From an uncultured Clostridia bacterium (GTDB taxonomy: Bacteria > Bacillota > Clostridia > Christensenellales > UBA1242), in the NCBI GenBank assembly GCA_944381205.1, contig CALWKG010000007.1:1-50472 (forward strand): a stretch of 50,472 bases of DNA, written 5' to 3'. Below, one piece after another: positions 2,015 to 50,361 of the stretch (position 1 is its first letter; each line of letters begins with the position of its first letter). A program made the translations under genes and the position numbers. The notes below the pieces were generated by a model, which had not been told where the DNA came from, ran no database searches, and saw only the letters and a list, made by a program, of their open reading frames with translations.

Positions 2015-2497
2015 TTGAATTCGATATCTGTTTGGGTTTTGCAAATTATAGGACTTGTAGTGGTGGGGGTAATTATAGATATTGTTTTTGGTGGTAGAAA
2101 ATTATGTAACATATTAAAAACAATAGTTGCGGTGTTTTTGATGATAGTGATAATTTCACCATTAAAAACAATAGATTTTAATAATTTTAATATAAATAAT
2201 TTCACGAATCCAATAGAGATAGACAAGGATATGATTGAAGAAATTCAGACTGATTTAATTAATGCAATGGAAAAGGACATAGAAAAAAGTTTGGAAAACA
2301 ATGGTTTTATGAGTGTAAAAATACAAATAGATTGTGAGCAAAATGATGAAACTCTAAATATAAAAACTATTTTTGTCGATTTAACAAATATGGTTCTTTT
2401 AAGCGAAAATTTGAATATAGATAAATATACAAAAATTATAGCAATAATAAGCAAGGAGGTTACTATTGAAAGGGAAGATGTAGTGTTCTATGAATGA
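2015..2497 (+). CDS. spoIIIAF: Stage III sporulation protein AF
   Basis: A 160-residue protein with two N-terminal membrane spans (about 5-25 and 33-50) followed by a soluble alpha/beta ring-building-like domain, as in SpoIIIAF. That domain is related to those of type III secretion rings and is thought to face the intermembrane space. The start is TTG at 2015 behind GGGGGAAG (2001-2007). The stop TGA (2495-2497) lies inside the start of spoIIIAG: the two genes overlap by 8 nt, which implies coupled translation. Confidence 0.88.
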   Translation: MNSISVWVLQIIGLVVVGVIIDIVFGGRKLCNILKTIVAVFLMIVIISPLKTIDFNNFNINNFTNPIEIDKDMIEEIQTDLINAMEKDIEKSLENNGFMSVKIQIDCEQNDETLNIKTIFVDLTNMVLLSENLNIDKYTKIIAIISKEVTIEREDVVFYE

Positions 2498-3029
2498 GGA
2501 AAAACCAAAAAAGAAAAATTTTCTAGAAAAGATAAAAAAAATAAAGCATTTAGATATAATTTTAACTGTACTTTTTATTGCTATAATTTTGCTAATATAC
2601 TTTTCTACTTTTAGTATTTCCAAGGACAAGCCTTCTACACAAAATGAGATAAGTTTAACTAGCGATTTTGATAATTACAAGCAAAGTTTAACTTACGAAT
2701 TAGAACAGTTAATATCGGCAATGAAAGGTGTAACAAGTGTAAAGGTAATGCTGTATTACAATTCTAGTATAGAAAAACAAATTGCTTATGACATGAACAT
2801 AACAACTACTGCTTCTGGTGAAAAGATTGAAACTAAAACCCCCATTTTAATAACAAATAACGGGAAAGAAGAAGTGGTGGTTTTACAAGAGATTATGCCA
2901 GAGCCAGAGTCTGTTGTTATAGTTGCTGGTGGAGCAGAAAATGCGAATATAAAGTTAGAAATAATAAAACTTGTAGAAACAACTTTTAAAATTAGCACTT
3001 CTAAAATAGAAGTTTTTGCAGGAAAATAA
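2490..3029 (+). CDS. spoIIIAG: Stage III sporulation protein AG
   Basis: A 179-residue single-pass protein: basic N terminus, membrane span at about residues 24-44, then a periplasmic-type domain with KGVTSVKVMLYYNSSIE and a later EIIKLVETTFKISTSKIEV helix-strand unit. This is the ring-building motif arrangement of SpoIIIAG, which forms a large ring between mother cell and forespore. The ATG at 2490 overlaps spoIIIAF by 8 nt. The usual insertion that splits the ring-building motif is present as the segment around residues 95-140. Confidence 0.92.
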   Translation: MNEEKPKKKNFLEKIKKIKHLDIILTVLFIAIILLIYFSTFSISKDKPSTQNEISLTSDFDNYKQSLTYELEQLISAMKGVTSVKVMLYYNSSIEKQIAYDMNITTTASGEKIETKTPILITNNGKEEVVVLQEIMPEPESVVIVAGGAENANIKLEIIKLVETTFKISTSKIEVFAGK

Positions 3030-3045
3030 AGGAGGATTTTTATTT

Positions 3046-3528
3046 ATGTTAACAAAAAAGAAAAAAATAATTGTACTAGTATCTATGGTAGCCCTTTTAG
3101 TAATAACAGGGGTACTTAATATTGTATTAAACAATACAGCCACAACGGCGCCAACTAATAGTGATTACGAGTATTCATCAGAGTCTTTTTTTGCAACTAG
3201 TAAATTAGACAGGACAAACACTAGGCAAGAGGCAATAGATAGATACAACCAAATCATATCCAGCAGTTCTAGCAGTCAAGAAGCAAAAGACCAAGCCCAA
3301 GAAGATTTGTCATTTGTTTTAGATTCAATGCTGCTTGAAAGTGATATGGAAGGACTTATCAAAGCCAAAGGGTTTAGTGACGTTTTTGTAAATTATTCTT
3401 CAACCTATATTAATGTAATGGTACAAAGTGCCGAACTAACCGAATCGGAAGTTGCCCAAATAGTAGAAATTATTCAGGGTAAAACTGCCAGAGATATAGA
3501 TTACATCAAAATTATTCCTGTGCAGTAA
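3046..3528 (+). CDS. spoIIIAH: Stage III sporulation protein AH
   Basis: A 160-residue protein with one N-terminal membrane span (IIVLVSMVALLVITGVLNIV) and a soluble domain containing a long helix with a run of serines (SSSSSQEAKDQAQED). SpoIIIAH binds SpoIIQ or its equivalent across the two forespore membranes to hold the engulfment channel together. The frame extends to a TTG at 3016, but the ATG at 3046 is preferred because AAGGAGG lies 8-10 nt upstream. It is the last gene of the operon. Confidence 0.93.
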   Translation: MLTKKKKIIVLVSMVALLVITGVLNIVLNNTATTAPTNSDYEYSSESFFATSKLDRTNTRQEAIDRYNQIISSSSSSQEAKDQAQEDLSFVLDSMLLESDMEGLIKAKGFSDVFVNYSSTYINVMVQSAELTESEVAQIVEIIQGKTARDIDYIKIIPVQ

Positions 3529-3536
3529 AAATTTAA

Positions 3537-3565
3537 TTGCATAAATGTTGCTTACATGATATACT
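3537..3565 (+). promoter_or_regulatory. Sigma-A type promoter for the Asp23-nusB-xse-proS cluster
   Basis: The -35 element TTGCAT (3537-3542) and the -10 element TATACT (3560-3565) are 17 bp apart, and a TGA triplet before the -10 gives an extended -10. It lies between spoIIIAH and the Asp23 gene, so it separates sporulation from housekeeping transcription. Confidence 0.75.
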
Positions 3566-3588
3566 ACTAAAAATAATAGGGGTAAATT

Positions 3589-3972
3589 ATGTTTAATAAT
3601 AGCAACTTATATGAAAAAAACGATGACGGAAAAGTCTACTGTGGTAAGAATATAATGCTTTCTATTATCAATCTTTCTGCCAAGGAGATTAGCGGGGTTG
3701 CGTCCCTTTGTACTAATTTTGCAAGCAGGTTTAAAAGATTTTTTTCCAATAATTATTTTGAGGGAGTAAAGGTTTCTTATACTCAAAGTAAAAATATAGT
3801 TATAGACATCTACTTAACAGTTTTCTTTGGTTATAGCGTTGCAGACGTTGCCTATCGTGTGCAGGAAAACGTTAAGAATGGTATTTCAAATATGATTAGC
3901 GCAAAGATTGATAGTATTAATATTCACGTTCTTGGGGTAGAGTTTTCTAAGGAAGAATTAGCAAAATATTAA
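3589..3972 (+). CDS. Asp23/Gls24 family envelope stress response protein
   Basis: A 127-residue protein of the Asp23/Gls24 (YqhY/YloU) family. Visible family features are an N-terminal INLSAKEISGVASL segment, the VSYTQSKNIVIDIYLTVFFGYSV strand core (only part quoted) and the VAYRVQENVKNGI helix. In Firmicutes the gene before nusB is regularly such a protein; in B. subtilis YqhY affects acetyl-CoA carboxylase activity. A GGGG ribosome-binding site precedes the ATG. The call to family is firm; the cellular role here is inferred. Confidence 0.9.
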   Translation: MFNNSNLYEKNDDGKVYCGKNIMLSIINLSAKEISGVASLCTNFASRFKRFFSNNYFEGVKVSYTQSKNIVIDIYLTVFFGYSVADVAYRVQENVKNGISNMISAKIDSINIHVLGVEFSKEELAKY

Positions 3973-3978
3973 AAAATT

Positions 3979-4006
3979 CCCTTGTATAAAACAAGGGCTA
4001 TTTTTT
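3979..4006 (+). terminator. Intrinsic terminator or attenuator before nusB
   Basis: A CCCTTGT / ACAAGGG stem (3979-3985 with 3991-3997) is followed by CTA and six T residues. It sits between the Asp23 gene and nusB, so it probably limits read-through into nusB rather than ending the cluster. Confidence 0.7.
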
Positions 4007-4030
4007 ATGCAAAAAGGAGTATTAGTAAAA

Positions 4031-4414
4031 ATGAGTCGTTCGCAAGCAAGAGAATATGCCTTTAAATTGACATTTGAATATTTATTTAATAAACAACCTG
4101 ACGAAAATATTGAGGAATTTGATATAATTAATGTAGATGAAAAAAATTTTGTGCAGGAACTTTTTGATTGTGTAAAGACAAATTTTGATGACATTGAGCA
4201 AAAACTTCAACAAAGTATAAAATACCCCAAGACATTAAAAGATATTTACACACTAGACCACGCGATATTAATTATTAGCATTGCGGAAATTGATTATTTA
4301 AAACAAGATAAAGGGGTTGTTATAAATGAGGCGGTAAGACTTGCAAAAAGATACTCTTCTGATAAGAGTCCAAAGTTTATTAATGGAGTTTTATCATCTA
4401 TTTATAATAAATAG
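4031..4414 (+). CDS. nusB: Transcription antitermination factor NusB
   Basis: A 127-residue all-helical protein with the NusB hallmarks SRSQAREYAFKLTFEYLF near the N terminus, a central ILIISIAEIDYL helix and the C-terminal VINEAVRLAKRYSSDKSPKF motif. NusB with S10 (NusE) binds boxA RNA and promotes antitermination in rRNA operons. The frame opens at an ATG at 4007, but MSRSQARE at 4031 is the conserved beginning, with AAGGAG at 4013-4018. An intrinsic hairpin directly upstream makes autoregulated attenuation conceivable. Confidence 0.94.
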   Translation: MSRSQAREYAFKLTFEYLFNKQPDENIEEFDIINVDEKNFVQELFDCVKTNFDDIEQKLQQSIKYPKTLKDIYTLDHAILIISIAEIDYLKQDKGVVINEAVRLAKRYSSDKSPKFINGVLSSIYNK

Positions 4415-4419
4415 TTGCT

Positions 4420-5595
4420 ATGTTAAAAGCATTAAGCGTTAGTGAATTAAACGAAATTGTAAAAAATATTTTTGATGCGGAAGAATTGTTATCTTACATA
4501 AAGGTTTATGGAGAAGTATCTAATCTTGCTTTTGTAAGGAACAACTTATACTTTAACCTTAAAGACGAGGGGGCATTAATCCCGTGCGTTATGTTTGGTG
4601 CTACAAGTTGTAGTATTAAAGATGGCGATCAAGTTATGGTAACGGGTGGACTTAAATTTTATGTAAAATCAGGTAAACTTAATTTATACGCAACCAGTAT
4701 TGCGCCATATGGCAGTGGGGTTTTATTTAAAAAATTTTTAGAATTAAAAAACAAATTAGAGCAAGAAGGTGTTTTTGACGAAAAATACAAAAAACCAATT
4801 CCTAAAAAGATTAAAACGATAGGTGTAATTACTTCTACAACTGGGGCGGTTTTGCACGATATAATAACAGTTACGCAAAGGAGAAATCCATACCTAGATA
4901 TAGTAGTTTATCCCGCTAGAGTGCAGGGAGAAGGAGCAGAAAACACTATAATTAATGGGTTAAGGTATTTTAATAAAGAACCAGATATTGACGTTGTTAT
5001 TATTGCTAGGGGTGGCGGTTCTATTGAAGATTTAGCACCGTTTAATACAGAAAGTTTAGCGCGAGAAATTATAAAAATTGATAAGCCAGTTATTTCTGCT
5101 GTTGGACACGAAACCGATTTTACTATATGTGATTTTGCTTCGTCACTTAGAGTTGCAACTCCATCTGTCGCGGGTGAAATAGTGTCAGAAGATATAACAG
5201 GTGTGGTAAAACAACTTAAAAGCAATGTTCAAAAACTTAATTATTTATATTTTTCTTTTTTAGATGAAAAATATTTTCTTTTAGATAAAATTACAAGTAA
5301 TTTAAAGTTAAAATTGCAAGGATTTTTGCTAAATGAAGAATATAAGTTAGAAAATTCTTTAAATTTGCTAAAATCAATTGATTTTACTACTATTTTAGAA
5401 CATAATTTAGAAGCAAAAAATTTAAAACTTTTATCTTTAGACGTTAATTCGATTTTAGACAAGGGGTTTGCAAAAATAACTGGTGATGATGGTAAAGTTA
5501 TCAAATCTATAAAACAAATAAATGTTAATAGTAAAATTTTGGTTGAGATTAAAGACGGAAAATTTAAAGCCAATGTGTTAGAAATAGGGGGATAA
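4420..5595 (+). CDS. xseA: Exodeoxyribonuclease VII large subunit
   Basis: A 391-residue XseA: N-terminal OB fold (about 1-100, beginning LSVSELNEIVKNIF), catalytic domain with TIGVITSTTGAVLHDI, VIIARGGGSIEDL and VISAVGHETDFTICDF, and a C-terminal coiled coil ending in KGFAKI. It is slightly shorter than the usual 440-450 residues, the loss falling in the coiled coil. With XseB it degrades single-stranded DNA in repair. The start follows nusB by 5 nt and has no clear ribosome-binding site, which suggests coupling. xseB follows 5 nt after its stop. Confidence 0.96.
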   Translation: MLKALSVSELNEIVKNIFDAEELLSYIKVYGEVSNLAFVRNNLYFNLKDEGALIPCVMFGATSCSIKDGDQVMVTGGLKFYVKSGKLNLYATSIAPYGSGVLFKKFLELKNKLEQEGVFDEKYKKPIPKKIKTIGVITSTTGAVLHDIITVTQRRNPYLDIVVYPARVQGEGAENTIINGLRYFNKEPDIDVVIIARGGGSIEDLAPFNTESLAREIIKIDKPVISAVGHETDFTICDFASSLRVATPSVAGEIVSEDITGVVKQLKSNVQKLNYLYFSFLDEKYFLLDKITSNLKLKLQGFLLNEEYKLENSLNLLKSIDFTTILEHNLEAKNLKLLSLDVNSILDKGFAKITGDDGKVIKSIKQINVNSKILVEIKDGKFKANVLEIGG

Positions 5596-5600
5596 GTAAG

Positions 5601-5807
5601 ATGAGTTTTGAAGAAAGCAATAAAAGGTTAGAAGAAATAATAACTAAGTTAGAAAAATCAAATTTGTCGTTGGAAGAAAGTTCAAAATTATACGAAGAAG
5701 GTGTTAAACTTGCCAAGGAGTGTTACAAAATATTAAACGAAAACAAAGGAAAAATAAAAATTTTAAAAGATGAACTTGATAATTTAACAACTGATACCGA
5801 AGAATAA
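5601..5807 (+). CDS. xseB: Exodeoxyribonuclease VII small subunit
   Basis: A 68-residue helical hairpin protein with the XseB signature SFEESNKRLEEIITKLE and SLEESSKLYEEGVKLAKECY. Several copies bind the coiled coil of XseA to form the active exonuclease. It starts 5 nt after the xseA stop, with GGGGG upstream at 5587-5591, and is followed by proS after 19 nt. Confidence 0.95.
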   Translation: MSFEESNKRLEEIITKLEKSNLSLEESSKLYEEGVKLAKECYKILNENKGKIKILKDELDNLTTDTEE

Positions 5808-25139: not shown

Positions 25140-26288
25140 TTATCTTTCTTGTTCTGGGAAGACAGGGCTTTGTGGGTCTTGTGGGGTATTATGGTCTTGT
25201 TGTGTGTTGTCAGGAATATCAGGGGTAGTGGAAGAACCGCCAGTATTTGCTTTCTTTGCTAAGTCAAAATCTGATTCACTACCTGGTCTGTCAAAATTTG
25301 CAGTGTTATTTTCGCTGTTACCACCAAATGTAAATTTTCCGGCGACAAGAAAAGTAGGTTTTCCATTTTGAATTTCGGCACCTGCTGACCCTGCAAAATA
25401 AGTACTATCGTTCACTGGGACTCCATAATGCCCCATTACACCAACTTTGTAATCATTAATTCCATTTGTATGTCCAAAATCAGTGTCTGCATATGCTGTA
25501 AAACCTGTTACCTGATCACCTTTTAGTTTAAACAAGTTAGTAGAAGAGACCCCAACACCATAGTTACCTTCAAGATTCGGGTTGTATGAAAAGGTTTTAG
25601 AAGCATAGACTTCATTATCGGATATAAAGTTTCCTTTCTCAACAGTTACCCCACCAGACATTGTTGCTTTTGTTGCTTCTTGTCCAACTGCTACACTAGT
25701 TCCAATAGAACCCGAAACTTTTGTTTTATTGGTCTTTTGAGTTATTTCTTGTTCCGCGTTTTCTGTGGCTGAATCGCTTGTAATCTCACTGCTAGCATCA
25801 GTTGAGTTTTCAACACTTGTTTCTGATACATTTTCACTTGTTGCTTCATTTTCGGTAGTTTCTGTATTTTCCTGTTCTTCATCTATGTCTGCATTTGCGT
25901 TGTCGTTATTTTGTTTATTATCTTTACCGGTAAAAACGTCTTTCATTTTTTCAAAATCAGTTTTTTCTGGGTCAGAGTCAAGTTTTACCCCATCTGTATC
26001 TGCTTCATAAGAGTTACCATTTTCATCAACATATACTTCGTTATCAGAAGATTTTTCGTTTTCAGAAACTTTTTCATCATTGATAGACTGTTCCATTTTA
26101 GTTTCGTTGTCTAAATTTTTATTATTATATTGATTATTGGCATCTCCTCCAAAAAACAAAACAGTAGAAACAACACCAGCAGCGAGTACCACCCCAACAA
26201 CACGAACGACCTTATTTTTTAAAATAATCTTTCTAATTTTTTCTGGGAAATCCCCACCGAAAGTTTTATCTTTTATACCTTTTGACAT
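25140..26288 (-). CDS. Orphan membrane-anchored acidic protein with beta-rich C-terminal domain
   Basis: I do not recognise this 382-residue protein. It has a basic N terminus, one membrane span (about 27-47), a very acidic low-complexity stretch rich in E, N, S, T and D (51-184), and a domain at about 188-323 made of alternating polar/hydrophobic strands with glycine and aromatic residues (GNYGVGVSSTNLFKLKG, TGFTAYADTDFG, DYKVGVMGHYGV, TFLVAGKFTFGG) that looks like a series of beta hairpins. A Pro/Gln/Asp-rich tail closes it. It should be an exported protein tethered to the membrane. AAAGGAG precedes the ATG. Its promoter carries a perfect palindrome, so regulated expression is likely. Function unknown. 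Confidence 0.8.
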   Translation of the reverse strand: MSKGIKDKTFGGDFPEKIRKIILKNKVVRVVGVVLAAGVVSTVLFFGGDANNQYNNKNLDNETKMEQSINDEKVSENEKSSDNEVYVDENGNSYEADTDGVKLDSDPEKTDFEKMKDVFTGKDNKQNNDNANADIDEEQENTETTENEATSENVSETSVENSTDASSEITSDSATENAEQEITQKTNKTKVSGSIGTSVAVGQEATKATMSGGVTVEKGNFISDNEVYASKTFSYNPNLEGNYGVGVSSTNLFKLKGDQVTGFTAYADTDFGHTNGINDYKVGVMGHYGVPVNDSTYFAGSAGAEIQNGKPTFLVAGKFTFGGNSENNTANFDRPGSESDFDLAKKANTGGSSTTPDIPDNTQQDHNTPQDPQSPVFPEQER

Positions 26289-43792: not shown

Positions 43793-43990
43793 ATGGCAAA
43801 ATGTGAGATTTGTGGCAAGGACCAGATGAGAGCAAGCAATTTAAGTTATAGAAGTTCTCAATTAACCAGAAGAACTTTAACACATAAAAAGGCTAATATT
43901 CAAAGGGTTACTATTGTAGAAAATGGTACTCCTTCTAAGAAATATGTTTGCACAAAATGCTTAAAGAGAAAGGATATCGTTAGGGGATAG
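43793..43990 (+). CDS. rpmB: 50S ribosomal protein L28 (zinc-binding form)
   Basis: A 65-residue L28 with the start MAKCEICGKD and the end YVCTKCLKRKDI, giving two CxxC pairs that bind zinc (the C+ paralogue type). The middle segment RRTLTHKKANIQRVTIVENG is typical. GGAGAAAG precedes the ATG. It stands alone between its promoter and terminator. Confidence 0.96.
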   Translation: MAKCEICGKDQMRASNLSYRSSQLTRRTLTHKKANIQRVTIVENGTPSKKYVCTKCLKRKDIVRG

Positions 43991-44032
43991 TTTTCTTATT
44001 TTTTGTGTTGTAATTATTGATTTTAGTTAATT

Positions 44033-46245: not shown

Positions 46246-48381
46246 TTATGCACTTATTTTTGCGCGTACATTTTTAGGATTTTGTATTAAATTTGTTTGT
46301 TGTACATATTTATTTTTTGTGTCGTTATTATTCATTTTATTGTTATTTTTGTAATTTTGTGTATTTTTATGGTTATTATTTAAAGAGTTATCGCGTTTAT
46401 TATTTAAAGTATTGTTATTGCTTTTATGATTTGAAGTATTATTTTTAGAATTAATATCTTGGTTTTGGATAGTATTATTAGTTAAAATTTTATCTTCATT
46501 ATCATTTTCACTTACGTCAAATTGATTATTTGTTTTAGGGTTTAGATTTTTTGTTTGAAGAGTTTCTTTTGAGATATTGCTGTTTGTTTGAGTATTATTT
46601 TTATTAATCAAATAATTATCATCTATAATTTCATTTTTATTACTTGTATATATAACAGGGGAAGTCTTATTTGATGTATATCTATTACGAGAATTATTTA
46701 TACTTGAAAAATAACGATTGTTTTTTAAATAACGATTATTTTGCAACCTTTTTTGAGTATTAGAATGAGTGTTAGAATTTGCCGGGTTTACATTATTACT
46801 TTGAGAATTATTATTTGTTTTATTATTTGGAATAACTCTTTTTACATCGCTATTAGTTTCATTATTATTTGAATTTTGATTTGTTTGGTTGTAATTTACA
46901 GGGTTGTTGGCCTTGTTGTAAGGAACAACGGAGTTGTTTTGAACGTTATCAATATTATTTGTCTGATTATTTACTATGTTATTGTTTCTAGAAATTATAT
47001 CTTTTTGAGTATTTTTTGAAATATTATTGTCCTTTAAAGTAGAATTATTTTGATTGTTAATTATTGTGTTGTTATTTTTTATACTATTGTTTGAAATGAT
47101 ATTAGAATTTTCGTCATTTTTTGTGGTGTCTGATATATTTCGACTTGGAGTGTTGATTTTTTTTGTTAAATTTGTGGTTGCATTTTGATTTTCTACACCT
47201 AGAAGATTTGAAACAAATTTTATCAGTTGTTCTACTGATTTATTTGCGTTATTACAAATAGTATTATTGCAGTCTAGACAACTATATATTTGTAAATATT
47301 CGGCATTTAGACTAGACGAATTATTGTTTAGATTTGTCTTTTTATAATTAATGTCGTTGGCTATTTTGGAGCAGGTTTTACAAGATTTTAGGTTATTAAT
47401 GGATTGGTTTACTACTTCTAAATAACTATTTAAAGTTTTTATATCGTTATCTGAAAGTGTTTTTTTGCTATTAACCAAATCTTTTAAAAGATTTTTTGCA
47501 ATGCCACAATTTTCCTTTAAAAGTTGTTTGTTTGTTTTATAACTTTCACCAATGGTTCTACATTCTTGGGAAATTTGATGCAAATCATAATAGTCATTAT
47601 TTGCTATATTTTGATTAGAAACAGTTGAAATTTGCTCGTTTTTTTGAACTGAATTTAGTTTATTATTTATTGTTTTATTTAGTCTGTTTCTAGTTGGGAC
47701 GTTACTGCTTAACGCATCACGATTTGTTTGAAGGTCAAAATATTCGCGACTTGTAGAAGGCTTATATATGGATTTGTTGTTTTGAGTAAGATTTGTGTTT
47801 TGTTGAGTGGCATTAGATTGATAGTTATTTTGGGTGCTGTTAGTTTGGGTAAAATTTGCGTTGTTACGATTGTTTTTTATTAAGGTTTGAGAATTGTAAT
47901 TTTGTTGAGAGGTATTATATTGATAATTATCTTGTTGAATATTATCGGAATATCCGTTTTGGCTAGTAGCCGTGTAGTTTTGATTGTCATTAGTTAGGTT
48001 TTGAGATTTATAGTTCTGCTGATTAGTATTAGTTTGACTATATTGCTGTGTATTATCATATTTGTATTGGTTAAAGTTTATGTCTTTTTGATTGCTGTTT
48101 GTTAGATTTTTGATGTTATAGTCTTGTTGAGTGATATCGGCTTGATAGTAGTTTAAATATTTGTCATTGTCATATTTAATTGTAAAGTCACCTAAAACAG
48201 AGTCTAAATTAAACTTTTCACTATCTACATCTTCTAATTTATCCACTTGTTTTACCATTTTATCTAAACTATTAGATAGTTTTTGGCTTGCTAATTTTAC
48301 TTGTGCGTTATTATTACTGGCACACCCTCCAATAAGAATTACCACAAAAATAATTGATAGTAGTGCTAAAAATTTTTTCAT
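46246..48381 (-). CDS. Large Asn/Gln-rich repeat lipoprotein, function unknown
   Basis: A 711-residue protein with a lipoprotein signal (ILIGGC, lipidated Cys at 20). A short helical segment (24-55) precedes a region with three imperfect repeats of about 37 residues (cores at 84-98 TQQDYNIKNLTNSNQ, 120-134, 158-172). A folded-looking core (about 264-396) is helical and has seven cysteines, including KSCKTCSK and CLDCNNTIC. From about 400 to the end it is extremely rich in Asn with Thr, Ser and Lys. GGGGG precedes the ATG. It diverges from spoVAC across 128 nt, so a role in sporulation or the spore surface is possible but only by proximity. I recognise no family. Confidence 0.85.
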   Translation of the reverse strand: MKKFLALLSIIFVVILIGGCASNNNAQVKLASQKLSNSLDKMVKQVDKLEDVDSEKFNLDSVLGDFTIKYDNDKYLNYYQADITQQDYNIKNLTNSNQKDINFNQYKYDNTQQYSQTNTNQQNYKSQNLTNDNQNYTATSQNGYSDNIQQDNYQYNTSQQNYNSQTLIKNNRNNANFTQTNSTQNNYQSNATQQNTNLTQNNKSIYKPSTSREYFDLQTNRDALSSNVPTRNRLNKTINNKLNSVQKNEQISTVSNQNIANNDYYDLHQISQECRTIGESYKTNKQLLKENCGIAKNLLKDLVNSKKTLSDNDIKTLNSYLEVVNQSINNLKSCKTCSKIANDINYKKTNLNNNSSSLNAEYLQIYSCLDCNNTICNNANKSVEQLIKFVSNLLGVENQNATTNLTKKINTPSRNISDTTKNDENSNIISNNSIKNNNTIINNQNNSTLKDNNISKNTQKDIISRNNNIVNNQTNNIDNVQNNSVVPYNKANNPVNYNQTNQNSNNNETNSDVKRVIPNNKTNNNSQSNNVNPANSNTHSNTQKRLQNNRYLKNNRYFSSINNSRNRYTSNKTSPVIYTSNKNEIIDDNYLINKNNTQTNSNISKETLQTKNLNPKTNNQFDVSENDNEDKILTNNTIQNQDINSKNNTSNHKSNNNTLNNKRDNSLNNNHKNTQNYKNNNKMNNNDTKNKYVQQTNLIQNPKNVRAKISA

Positions 48382-48402
48382 TTTATCCCCCTAAAAATAG
48401 TT

Positions 48403-48432
48403 TTTATAAAATTAGTGTGTATGATTTTTCAA
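48403..48432 (-). promoter_or_regulatory. Promoter of the Asn-rich lipoprotein gene
   Basis: On the minus strand TTGAAA (48427-48432) and TATAAA (48403-48408) are 18 bp apart, a sigma-A type rather than a sporulation-sigma arrangement. Confidence 0.5.
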
Positions 48433-48509
48433 GAAATATTTATATTTACTCAAATTTTTGTATTAAAAAACTAAAATGGGTAAATATTTTCCTTAGGAGT
48501 TTTAACTTT

Positions 48510-48965
48510 ATGGATAAAAATAAAATAAACATTGCTTATAACAAATTTGTAGAAAATAGGTTGCCAAAAACAAAATTTTTCCCTTCACTGCTGTGGGCTT
48601 TTTTAGTAGGTGGGCTAATTTGTTGTATAGGGCAAGGGATTTTTGATGGTTTAATGGCGATATTTCCCAAACTATCCAAAGATAACGCACAGGCATACAC
48701 TTTAATAATACTTATATTTCTTGCGTCATTTTTAACGGGCTTAGGAGTCTATGACCGTATAGGTGCCTTTGCAGGGGCGGGGTCAATTGTGCCAATAACG
48801 GGATTTTCTAATTCCATAGCAAGTCCTGCGGTAGAGTTTAAAAATGAAGGTCTTATTTTTGGACTATGTGTAAAAATGTTTAGTGTAGCAGGCCCAGTTA
48901 TTGTAACGGGGATTGTGTCTAGTATGCTAGTAGGTTTAATTTATTATATTGTGGGGTTATTATGA
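48510..48965 (+). CDS. spoVAC: Stage V sporulation protein AC
   Basis: A 151-residue membrane protein, the size of SpoVAC, with FPSLLWAFLVGGLICCIGQG, the acidic turn, LASFLTGLGVYDRIGAFAGA and VPITGFSNSIASPAVEFKNE. SpoVAC is part of the channel that moves calcium dipicolinate in sporulation and germination. The frame is open further upstream, but the ATG at 48510 has TTAGGAG before it. Its TGA stop overlaps the spoVAD start (ATGA). Confidence 0.95.
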   Translation: MDKNKINIAYNKFVENRLPKTKFFPSLLWAFLVGGLICCIGQGIFDGLMAIFPKLSKDNAQAYTLIILIFLASFLTGLGVYDRIGAFAGAGSIVPITGFSNSIASPAVEFKNEGLIFGLCVKMFSVAGPVIVTGIVSSMLVGLIYYIVGLL

Positions 48966-49972
48966 TAAAAAGAGTAGGAGAAAGTACTATAAAGTTTACT
49001 CTTCCGCCAAAGTTTGTTAGCGGATATGCTATTGTGGGTCCCAAGGAAGGTCAAAGCCCGCTTGCGGGATATTTTGATTACATTTTAAAGAATGATTCCT
49101 TTAACGAAAAAACTTACGAAAAAGCGGAACGAAAGATGTTAGAGCAGGCAATAGGCGGGGCGATAGATAAGGCAAATTTATTGTCTACCGATATAGACAT
49201 TCTGCTTAGCGGAGATTTGTTAAATCAAATTATTTCTGCATCGTTTTCTGCTAGGCAACTGCAAACTGCGTTTATCGGAGTTTTTGGGGCCTGCTCTACT
49301 ATGACTGAAAGTCTTGCCGTAGGAGCCTGTTTAATTGACGGCGGATATGCTAGTAACGTGGCTTGTGCGACTTCTAGTCATTTTAGTACTGCTGAAAGAC
49401 AATTTAGGTTCCCGCTTGAACTTGGTTGTCAAAGACCGCCCACAGCGCAGTGGACAGTAACGGGGGCAGGGTGTTCTATTTTGTCTAGGGAAGGCAATGG
49501 GCACAATATAACCCACGTTACATTTGGAAAGGTGGTTGACTATGGCATAAAGGATATGAACAATATGGGTGCGGCTATGGCACCCGCTGCGTGCGACACT
49601 CTAAAAAGATTGTTTAAAGATACAAAAACCACCCCTGATGATTACGATTTAATTGTAACTGGCGATTTAGGTAAACTGGGCTCGGAACTTTTGGTTGATT
49701 TGCTTGAAAATTGCGGTTACAAACTTGGGGCTAATTACTGCGACTGCGGACAAATGATTTTTAGTAATTCGCAAAAGAGTTTTATGGGCGGTAGCGGTTG
49801 CGGGTGTAGTGCTAGTGTTATTAACTCATACGTATTAAGCAAACTCGATGCAGGCGACTATAAAAAGGTTATTTTAATGTCAACCGGCGCTCTTGTAAGT
49901 ACAACATCTACCCAGCAGGGAGAGTCTATCCCCGGCATAGCACACGCAGTTATTGTAGAAAAGGGCATTTAA
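48962..49972 (+). CDS. spoVAD: Stage V sporulation protein AD
   Basis: A 336-residue thiolase-fold protein that binds dipicolinic acid. Typical segments are KFVSGYAIVGPKEGQSPL, FGACSTMTESLAVGACLIDG, TSSHFSTAERQFRFPLELG, and GSGCGCSASVINSYVLSKL. Full length for the family. It overlaps spoVAC by 4 nt and is followed by spoVAE after 8 nt. Confidence 0.96.
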   Translation: MIKRVGESTIKFTLPPKFVSGYAIVGPKEGQSPLAGYFDYILKNDSFNEKTYEKAERKMLEQAIGGAIDKANLLSTDIDILLSGDLLNQIISASFSARQLQTAFIGVFGACSTMTESLAVGACLIDGGYASNVACATSSHFSTAERQFRFPLELGCQRPPTAQWTVTGAGCSILSREGNGHNITHVTFGKVVDYGIKDMNNMGAAMAPAACDTLKRLFKDTKTTPDDYDLIVTGDLGKLGSELLVDLLENCGYKLGANYCDCGQMIFSNSQKSFMGGSGCGCSASVINSYVLSKLDAGDYKKVILMSTGALVSTTSTQQGESIPGIAHAVIVEKGI

Positions 49973-49980
49973 AAGGAGAA

Positions 49981-50361
49981 ATGAAAAAAATGAATATGTT
50001 TTTGCAATATTTAATTGTTTTTACTGTGGGCGGAACGATTTGTCTACTTGCACAAATTTTAATTATTAGAACGCGTATGACATCGGCAAGAATTTTGGTA
50101 CTTTTTGAGTTAATAGGTGTGTTTTTGCAGGCAGTAATGCTTTTTGAACCAATTAAAGAGTTTGCTAAATCGGGTATAACTGTGCCAATTATTGGGTTTG
50201 GGGCTTCACTTGCTAGGGGTGCAATGGAAGCAGTTAAGCAAGACGGTATTTTGGGAATTTTTACAGGCGGGCTAACTGCTACTGCGGCGGGAATTGCTGC
50301 TGCGGTTGGTTTTGGATATATCTTTGCACTGATTTTTAGGGCAAGGAGCAAAAAATCGTAA
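49981..50361 (+). CDS. spoVAE: Stage V sporulation protein AE
   Basis: A 126-residue membrane protein with QYLIVFTVGGTICLLAQILI, ILVLFELIGVFLQAV, FAKSGITVPIIGFGASLARG and GGLTATAAGIAAAVGFGYI, matching SpoVAEb. GGAG lies only 2 nt before the ATG at 49981; the ATG at 49990 (MNMFLQYL), with 11 nt spacing, may be the real start. It closes the operon; no spoVAF follows before the terminator. Confidence 0.93.
   Translation: MKKMNMFLQYLIVFTVGGTICLLAQILIIRTRMTSARILVLFELIGVFLQAVMLFEPIKEFAKSGITVPIIGFGASLARGAMEAVKQDGILGIFTGGLTATAAGIAAAVGFGYIFALIFRARSKKS

Follow-up and report, generated by a model that had tools for sequence, protein, structure and literature searches.

A fast-changing, Asn-rich lipoprotein encoded head-to-head with spoVAC: a possible additional outer component of the SpoVA channel in a family of gut Clostridia

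The SpoVA channel for dipicolinate (DPA) is poorly understood on its outer face and, going by the account in PMC13059800, a single cap, NJ2, has been described. NJ2 (SpoVANJ2) is a YhcN/YlaJ-type lipoprotein encoded in the spoVA2 locus of B. anthracis and B. cereus; as presented in that account, it is needed for full DPA import in B. anthracis, the SpoVA2 proteins of B. cereus co-purify, NJ2 is predicted to cap the channel, and the SpoVA loci of C. difficile and B. subtilis are listed as lacking it (PMC13059800). Other spore proteins offer partial likenesses. GerD of Bacillus is outlined as a helical lipoprotein that is made in the forespore and sits at the inner spore membrane, on its outer side (PMC11841064). 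GerG of C. difficile is introduced as an Asn-rich protein that is produced under mother-cell sigma-E control, forms gels through its repeats in vitro and affects germination, its repeats being dispensable for its function, and GerS of the Peptostreptococcaceae, likewise under mother-cell sigma-E control, has a role in SleC activity (both as summarized in PMC5241399). Here, we describe a lipoprotein gene that faces spoVAC in an uncultured clostridial family; among the open-licence PMC papers listed by literature searches, no title or abstract opening described such a lipoprotein.

The window, i.e. the whole stretch of 50,472 nucleotides that was analysed, belongs to a genome of about 1.0 Mb in 31 contigs. 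On its minus strand, an open reading frame (46246–48381) that begins with MKKF stays open over 711 residues, and it diverges from a plus-strand operon comprising spoVAC (48510–48965; TIGR02838, start set by relatives), spoVAD (48962–49972; PF07451 and TIGR02845) and spoVAE (49981–50361; PF03862 and TIGR02839, the latter below the NCBIfam cut-off with a score of 120.9 against 131.1). The intergenic region of 128 bp between them (48382–48509) holds, by upstream-region analysis, the promoters of both transcription units. The frame is not a chance one, as, when 60 relatives were queried with the single protein, 10 of the 12 genomes of the genus (its own included) had a homologue; the same query matched none of the 48 relatives outside the genus. 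Two other parts of the window may be mentioned: a series of frames at the contig start (280–3528, plus strand) resembles by eye the end of a spoIIIA operon, and a lone minus-strand gene (25140–26288) encodes a 382-residue protein rich in Glu, Asn, Ser and Thr with a hydrophobic N-terminal segment.

The encoded protein starts with a predicted Sec signal peptide that ends in the lipobox IGGC (residues 1–20; 48322–48381, minus strand, as for all following parts), and its putatively lipidated residue, Cys20, is invariant across all 10 sequences of the genus. A conserved helix follows (residues 24–48; 48238–48312) with the consensus NNSAQVKLASQKLS..LDKMI.QVNKLEE, which was delimited by alignment and predicted by AlphaFold2 at a pLDDT of about 95. 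Gln/Asn repeats, degenerate and each about 38 residues long (residues 93–190; 47812–48105), precede an all-helical core domain with seven cysteines, recognized by profiles and AlphaFold2 (residues 257–394; 47200–47613), and behind this core runs an Asn-rich tail with a net positive charge, disordered by AlphaFold2 and composition (residues 399–701; 46279–47187). The chain closes with the motif PKNVRAKISA (residues 702–711; 46249–46278), defined from the alignment of genus members. In the full-length AlphaFold2 model the helix at 24–48 is confident and nearly every residue of 93–262 and 399–711 falls below a pLDDT of 50. Modelling of residues 227–404 gave helices at 257–304, 311–332, 338–347 and 351–394, mostly with pLDDT values above 80–90 (mean of the whole construct 77, pTM 0.64). 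The core cysteines lie at positions 274, 292, 334, 337, 368, 371 and 376 and include both a CxxC and a CxxCx4C arrangement. These results confirm what an earlier note on this DNA had read from the letters, namely a 711-residue lipoprotein next to spoVA and divergent to a spore operon, a seven-Cys helical core with both cysteine motifs, repeats of about 37 residues and a C-terminal stretch of some 310 residues dominated by Asn. The repeats are real but degenerate: the self-match of residues 74–226 peaks at an offset of 38 (21 identities in 60 columns), a score equalled by none of 500 composition-preserving shuffles, and they are absent from the Tandem Repeats Finder listing. They form a gap in the alignment rows of the other genus members.

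Known families and folds offered little guidance. Pfam, which includes a GerD model, returned no family at E≤1 for the whole lipoprotein, and NCBIfam only two unrelated names far below cut-off; searches of both with single core members gave mixed, mostly coiled-coil families, below cut-offs for the first member. Sequence comparison with the PDB yielded generic helical proteins only (best E 0.003), and Foldseek had no match at E≤0.001. VIA reached a best Z of 9.6 among many unrelated helical proteins, a value that may reflect no more than a common arrangement. No chain of GerD, whose fold is a trimeric helical rope, was among the 50 matches listed by Foldseek or VIA, an absence that does not speak against a shared fold. 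One PHROGs match (E 0.003) was taken as chance. None of 317 pattern stretches in viral contigs was confirmed, and no homologue was found on plasmids either. A phage origin of the lipoprotein finds no support.

The position of the gene is conserved well beyond the genus. Within the genus, all nine relatives that carry it have it facing spoVAC. In G009 and G011, the two genomes from which it is missing, spoVAC is absent as well, although spoIVA is present; as the genes adjoin, a single gap or deletion in each could explain this co-absence. Across 59 family genomes, a spoVAC search gave 53 strong matches, two weak ones (maybe spoVAE) and four without a match, and longer stretches were examined for 40 of the 50 strong loci outside the genus, from 29 genera. 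In 38 of these 40, spoVAC faces, head-to-head, a gene for a secreted and mostly N/Q-rich product; the gene is separated from spoVAC by 3–220 bp according to the called start and encodes 298–993 residues with 15–34% Asn plus Gln. At L098 the operon order has changed to spoVAD-spoVAE-spoVAC and a similar gene for a secreted N/Q-rich protein of 454 residues faces spoVAD; at L094 spoVAC is present and has no neighbour of the lipoprotein type (one of the 40 loci). A sigF-like gene is nearby in half of the 38 loci (19), with the lipoprotein gene between sigF and spoVAC and pointing at sigF; the genus of the window has lost this sigF linkage and retained that to spoVA. As the pairing survives both loss of the sigF linkage and operon rearrangement, the link appears to be to SpoVA itself. 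The co-absence in the two genus members would also fit an unrelated vegetative lipoprotein with nothing but an intergenic region in common with spoVA, one gap each sufficing, but the pairing at 38 of the 40 loci, which span 29 genera, a spoVT-like promoter (see below) and the presence of a single copy make such a coincidence highly improbable. The single copy is seen with profile A6, which matched 21 of 297 genomes of the order, 20 of them from the family, with 20 of the 21 having a single match each; this count is a lower bound, as genomes were drawn evenly and A6 finds the diverged family only in part, and the one outsider matched weakly (G134, E 4e-7). A contig scan with the single lipoprotein as query found no loci, and one with profile A2 found nine, all known genus members. 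Of 24 genomes from the order's other families, 18 yielded spoVAC and none of these 18 loci has the lipoprotein gene, so SpoVA is present in other Clostridia without such a lipoprotein; L132, from one of these families, has an unrelated-looking divergent frame for a secreted product of 142 residues. A small Cys-rich protein is encoded beyond the lipoprotein gene in two genus members, L021 (10452–10793, minus strand) and L025 (4644–4970, plus strand; preceded there by two further genes at 2147–4642).

What unites these neighbours is the helical core. A search with the core alone, proposed in the earlier note, found homologues beside spoVAC across the family: the profile built from the genus matched 13 of the 38 proteins from other genera at E≤0.001, and its iterated form 33, placing 43 of 48 proteins in one alignment. 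In a control, the iterated profile also matched an unrelated short helical frame of the window (5601–5807) with an E-value of 0.002, so that for the remotest among the 33 the assignment depends in part on their position. The N-terminal profile of the genus matched 23 of the 38, helped by the shared signal peptide. With hhalign, the genus cores align to 20 cores of other genera (E 6.5e-17, probability 98.8) and these 20 to ten more distant ones (E 2.2e-12), values that are somewhat flattered as the domain edges were set by the profile. The shared core pattern is helical (..LY.....D....N........Y......L..R....N...), and what is conserved overall, judged from the alignments, is the export signal, the N-terminal helix and the all-helical core, joined in the genus by a C-terminal PKxVRA. 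By eye, all 48 members have a hydrophobic export signal. A strict filter finds a lipobox in 34 of them and reading adds L024, L061, L063, L066 and probably L095, for a total of about 39; in the remaining nine the N-terminus is hydrophobic but has no lipobox, which indicates that lipidation is not essential.

The cysteines fare differently. The earlier note had proposed that they bind metal or cross-link, and a Cys-rich metal-binding or cross-linking protein of the spore surface could draw on the seven core cysteines, on the invariance of C292 and C337 in 10 genus members and on repeated CDxNGNCxxC stretches in the linkers of L064 (residues about 379–430), L074 (about 130–190) and L078 (about 112–170), which we take to resemble Ca-binding-loop or knot-like modules. 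The core cysteines are not kept outside the genus, however, although the helical domain is, and the Cys-rich stretches occupy different regions in different members. As a general function, the metal or cross-linking core is therefore rejected, and the Cys-rich reading as a whole is very improbable, also in view of the promoter type discussed below.

The tail is likewise no common denominator. Asn makes up 24.8% of the window protein, an extreme outlier compared with a median of 7.0% and a runner-up of 11.5% among the 38 window frames of at least 150 residues; residues 401–711 contain 32% Asn and 6% Gln, and the densest stretch has 40 N/Q per 80 residues. The tail has no repeat signal (its best value was matched by 152 of 200 shuffles). 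A 30-bp stretch of the window (43996–44025, minus strand), directly downstream of a frame at 43793–43990, is 90% identical to the tail DNA, probably by low-complexity chance. The tail's net positive charge recurs in eight of the 10 genus members, and the C-terminal PKxVRA, with V and R invariant in all 10, is kept there despite the hundreds of freely diverging residues before it; L062, from another genus, ends in SKKVRA. Members with at least 30 N/Q in an 80-residue stretch number 34 of 48, and the short proteins of L075, L076 and L087 (356–372 residues; 18–22 N/Q per 80) have no N-rich stretch, so that the core, not the tail, is what the members share. Gel or amyloid behaviour of the N/Q-rich region, raised in the earlier note, is possible, going by composition. 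The Asn excess is partly mutational, as the Asn fraction falls with rising flanking GC (Spearman -0.66, p 3.6e-7, 48 loci); Gln shows no such relation at these loci (p 0.09). Together with the wide range of lengths and the lack of a tail repeat, this would suit a structural filler, i.e. a polymer of the intermembrane space or cortex, anchored in the inner membrane, in which length and hydration matter rather than specific contacts and Asn mostly reflects AT-biased mutation. Lys, which is equally AT-coded, is nevertheless not raised (9.0% compared with a window median of 9.2%), Asn reaches 3.6 times its own median, and neither a core conserved across the family nor a C-terminal motif kept in the genus behind a diverging tail is expected of a filler, leaving this reading improbable.

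In C. difficile, promoters for sigma-F and sigma-G are reported to differ around the -10, those for sigma-F having a conserved upstream G and those for sigma-G a conserved downstream A, with spoVT placed under both factors and spoVAC in the sigma-G regulon (as presented in PMC3789822). The gene in the window is preceded by a sigma-G-type promoter by motif comparison, TAAATA-N17-CACACTA, 31 bp before its ATG (48413–48442, minus strand). Calibration used the upstream regions of spoIVA, spoIIR and spoVT-like genes of the same lineage; SASP promoters were unusable, as SASP genes were not found. Read in the lipoprotein direction, 26 of the 48 intergenic regions contain the dyad T[GA][AC]ATA-N16-18-CANRHTA (a mean of 0.15 and at most 2 in shuffles), 15–34 bp before the start; because the patterns were framed after inspecting the regions, this and the following shuffle contrasts are fair comparisons rather than measures of absolute fit. 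Of the 48 lipoprotein regions, 42 have the relaxed form ATA-N16-18-[CA]ANAMTA (3.1 on average in shuffles), as do 14 of 18 spoVT regions (1.0), the latter defined by TIGR02851 matches below the model's cut-off, as against one of 27 spoIIR, none of nine spoIVA and four of 48 spoVAC regions (2.4 for spoVAC). A sigma-F-type form with the upstream G is present in 10 of 48 spoVAC regions (0.55 by shuffle), seven of 27 spoIIR regions (0.23) and one of 48 lipoprotein regions, and a sigma-E-type form in six of nine spoIVA regions and nowhere else, including none of the 48 lipoprotein regions. The strict pattern TRAATA-N17-CAMAMTA is not enriched genome-wide (57 matches against 59 for the reversed pattern in 12 genomes), and 10 of the 57 belong to the lipoprotein gene, so the pattern does not reveal a sigma-G regulon. 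From these contrasts and the sigma-F and sigma-G differences of C. difficile, the lipoprotein promoter is of a forespore type, closest to sigma-G, and the forespore is the probable place where the protein is produced. Coat and exosporium proteins are mother-cell products, and a forespore lipoprotein would end up on the outer face of the inner membrane, as GerD does. Of the spore-surface role raised in the earlier note, the link to sporulation is thus strongly supported by the spoVA pairing and the forespore-type promoter, whereas placement in coat or exosporium is unlikely with a promoter of sigma-G rather than sigma-E type. The spoVAC sites of the family, for their part, resemble those of spoIIR (sigma-F type), in contrast to the sigma-G regulon membership given for C. 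difficile in PMC3789822, and spoVA expression in the family has possibly shifted earlier.

How, then, does the family protein compare with the described systems? It shares a lipoprotein signal with the YhcN/YlaJ lipoproteins, NJ2 among them. It differs from NJ2 in having no PF09580 match, an all-helical core and a long N-rich tail, and in being encoded by a divergent transcription unit, whereas NJ2 lies within the spoVA2 operon. PF09580 (YhcN/YlaJ) exceeded its cut-off in none of 36 family genomes, the window's own genome having no match, and in six of 24 order-mates. GerD is not known to have an N-rich tail. The family protein resembles it as a helical lipoprotein with a putative forespore origin and a putative place on the outer face of the inner membrane; GerD acts with germinant receptors and is not reported in association with spoVA. 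GerG, described as a germination-linked spore protein, is likewise lineage-specific, with about 30% Asn and low-complexity repeats, but in PMC5241399 it is confined to C. difficile and no core like that of the family protein is described for it. GerS is, by description, another lineage-specific lipoprotein of sporulation (PMC5241399). Such likenesses invite a scaffold for germination, either an inner-membrane or cortex lipoprotein that organizes germination proteins or a hydrogel formed by the Asn tail, with the spoVA pairing arising only because both are forespore genes. The gel-forming, germination-affecting GerG and the N/Q density of most members lend this some weight. Against it, the lipoprotein has no match to a Pfam family, GerG is under mother-cell sigma-E and no sigma-E-type site was found at the lipoprotein gene, the repeats of GerG form gels yet are dispensable (which is also why we do not place the function in the tail), some short members have no N-rich stretch, and the spoVA pairing outlasts the loss of sigF linkage and the rearranged operon. 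We regard the scaffold as unlikely, though less so than the other alternatives weighed above.

The lipobox export signal, helical core, disordered tail, head-to-head pairing with spoVAC and sigma-G-type promoter can be read directly from the sequence. The explanation that we put forward, with about an even chance of being right, is that they mark a family-specific, forespore-made extracytoplasmic lipoprotein serving the SpoVA DPA channel; a SpoVA-linked inner-membrane lipoprotein explains the data better than a Cys-rich or amyloid protein of the spore surface. In the proposed model, for which the anchoring face, the contact with SpoVA and the role in DPA transport are conjectural, sigma-G RNA polymerase would make the lipoprotein in the engulfed forespore, from where it would cross the inner forespore membrane via Sec and be anchored by its diacylglyceryl-Cys on the outer face, beside the mouth of the SpoVAC/SpoVAE channel. 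The helical core would be the working part and contact the channel or its neighbours, as the unrelated NJ2 cap does in the SpoVA2 of B. anthracis; binding to the channel is demonstrated, in what PMC13059800 describes, for NJ2 only, and we infer that the family protein is its counterpart. The Asn-rich tail would serve as a hydrated spacer that extends between the forespore membranes or into the cortex, where it might present the short C-terminal peptide (PKxVRA in the genus) to a partner, and loss of the lipoprotein would be expected to impair the uptake of DPA, its timely release or resistance to heat. Counting against the model are the members without a lipobox, L094, the SpoVA loci of other Clostridia that do without such a protein, the missing genome-wide enrichment of the strict promoter pattern, and the control by both sigma-F and sigma-G that spoVT, a calibrating gene, has in C. 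difficile. A bolder and more speculative version, which we hold to be rather doubtful, is that the family, probably UBA1242, independently invented an extracytoplasmic SpoVA gate, as a replacement or an addition, in which a capping helical lipoprotein unrelated to NJ2 and a fast-evolving Asn-rich tail, acting as hydrogel or tether in the intermembrane space, set DPA entry and exit.

For family UBA1242, to which these bacteria probably belong, the presence of sporulation genes is called ‘quite unexpected’ in PMC12306168. All 12 genus genomes have SpoIVA, 35 of 39 family genomes have SpoIIR, and alpha/beta-type SASPs (PF00269) were found in none of the 12 genus genomes, a B. subtilis control being positive; from these searches, the genus seems to have a sporulation programme without DNA-protecting SASPs. 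Two other family genomes, G031 (rated 100% complete, in three contigs) and G064, have SpoIIR and no spoVAC match, so the DPA channel has possibly been lost there with sporulation genes kept. The present findings bear on whether uncultured gut Clostridia with genomes of roughly 1 Mb form real spores. Should the idea of an independent gate be true, it would mean that genome-reduced gut bacteria keep and still innovate their spore channel, apparently without alpha/beta-type SASPs in the genus. The lipoprotein is, on present comparisons, an undescribed and fast-changing protein that may form an additional outer component of the SpoVA channel, and a clear case of a protein that changes in most of its sequence yet retains its location, helical core and promoter. 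If the proposed link to the channel is true, a second, unrelated SpoVA-linked lipoprotein in at least 29 genera would offer an independent system for testing extracytoplasmic control of SpoVA, and would point to the extracytoplasmic side of the channel as a recurrent control point.
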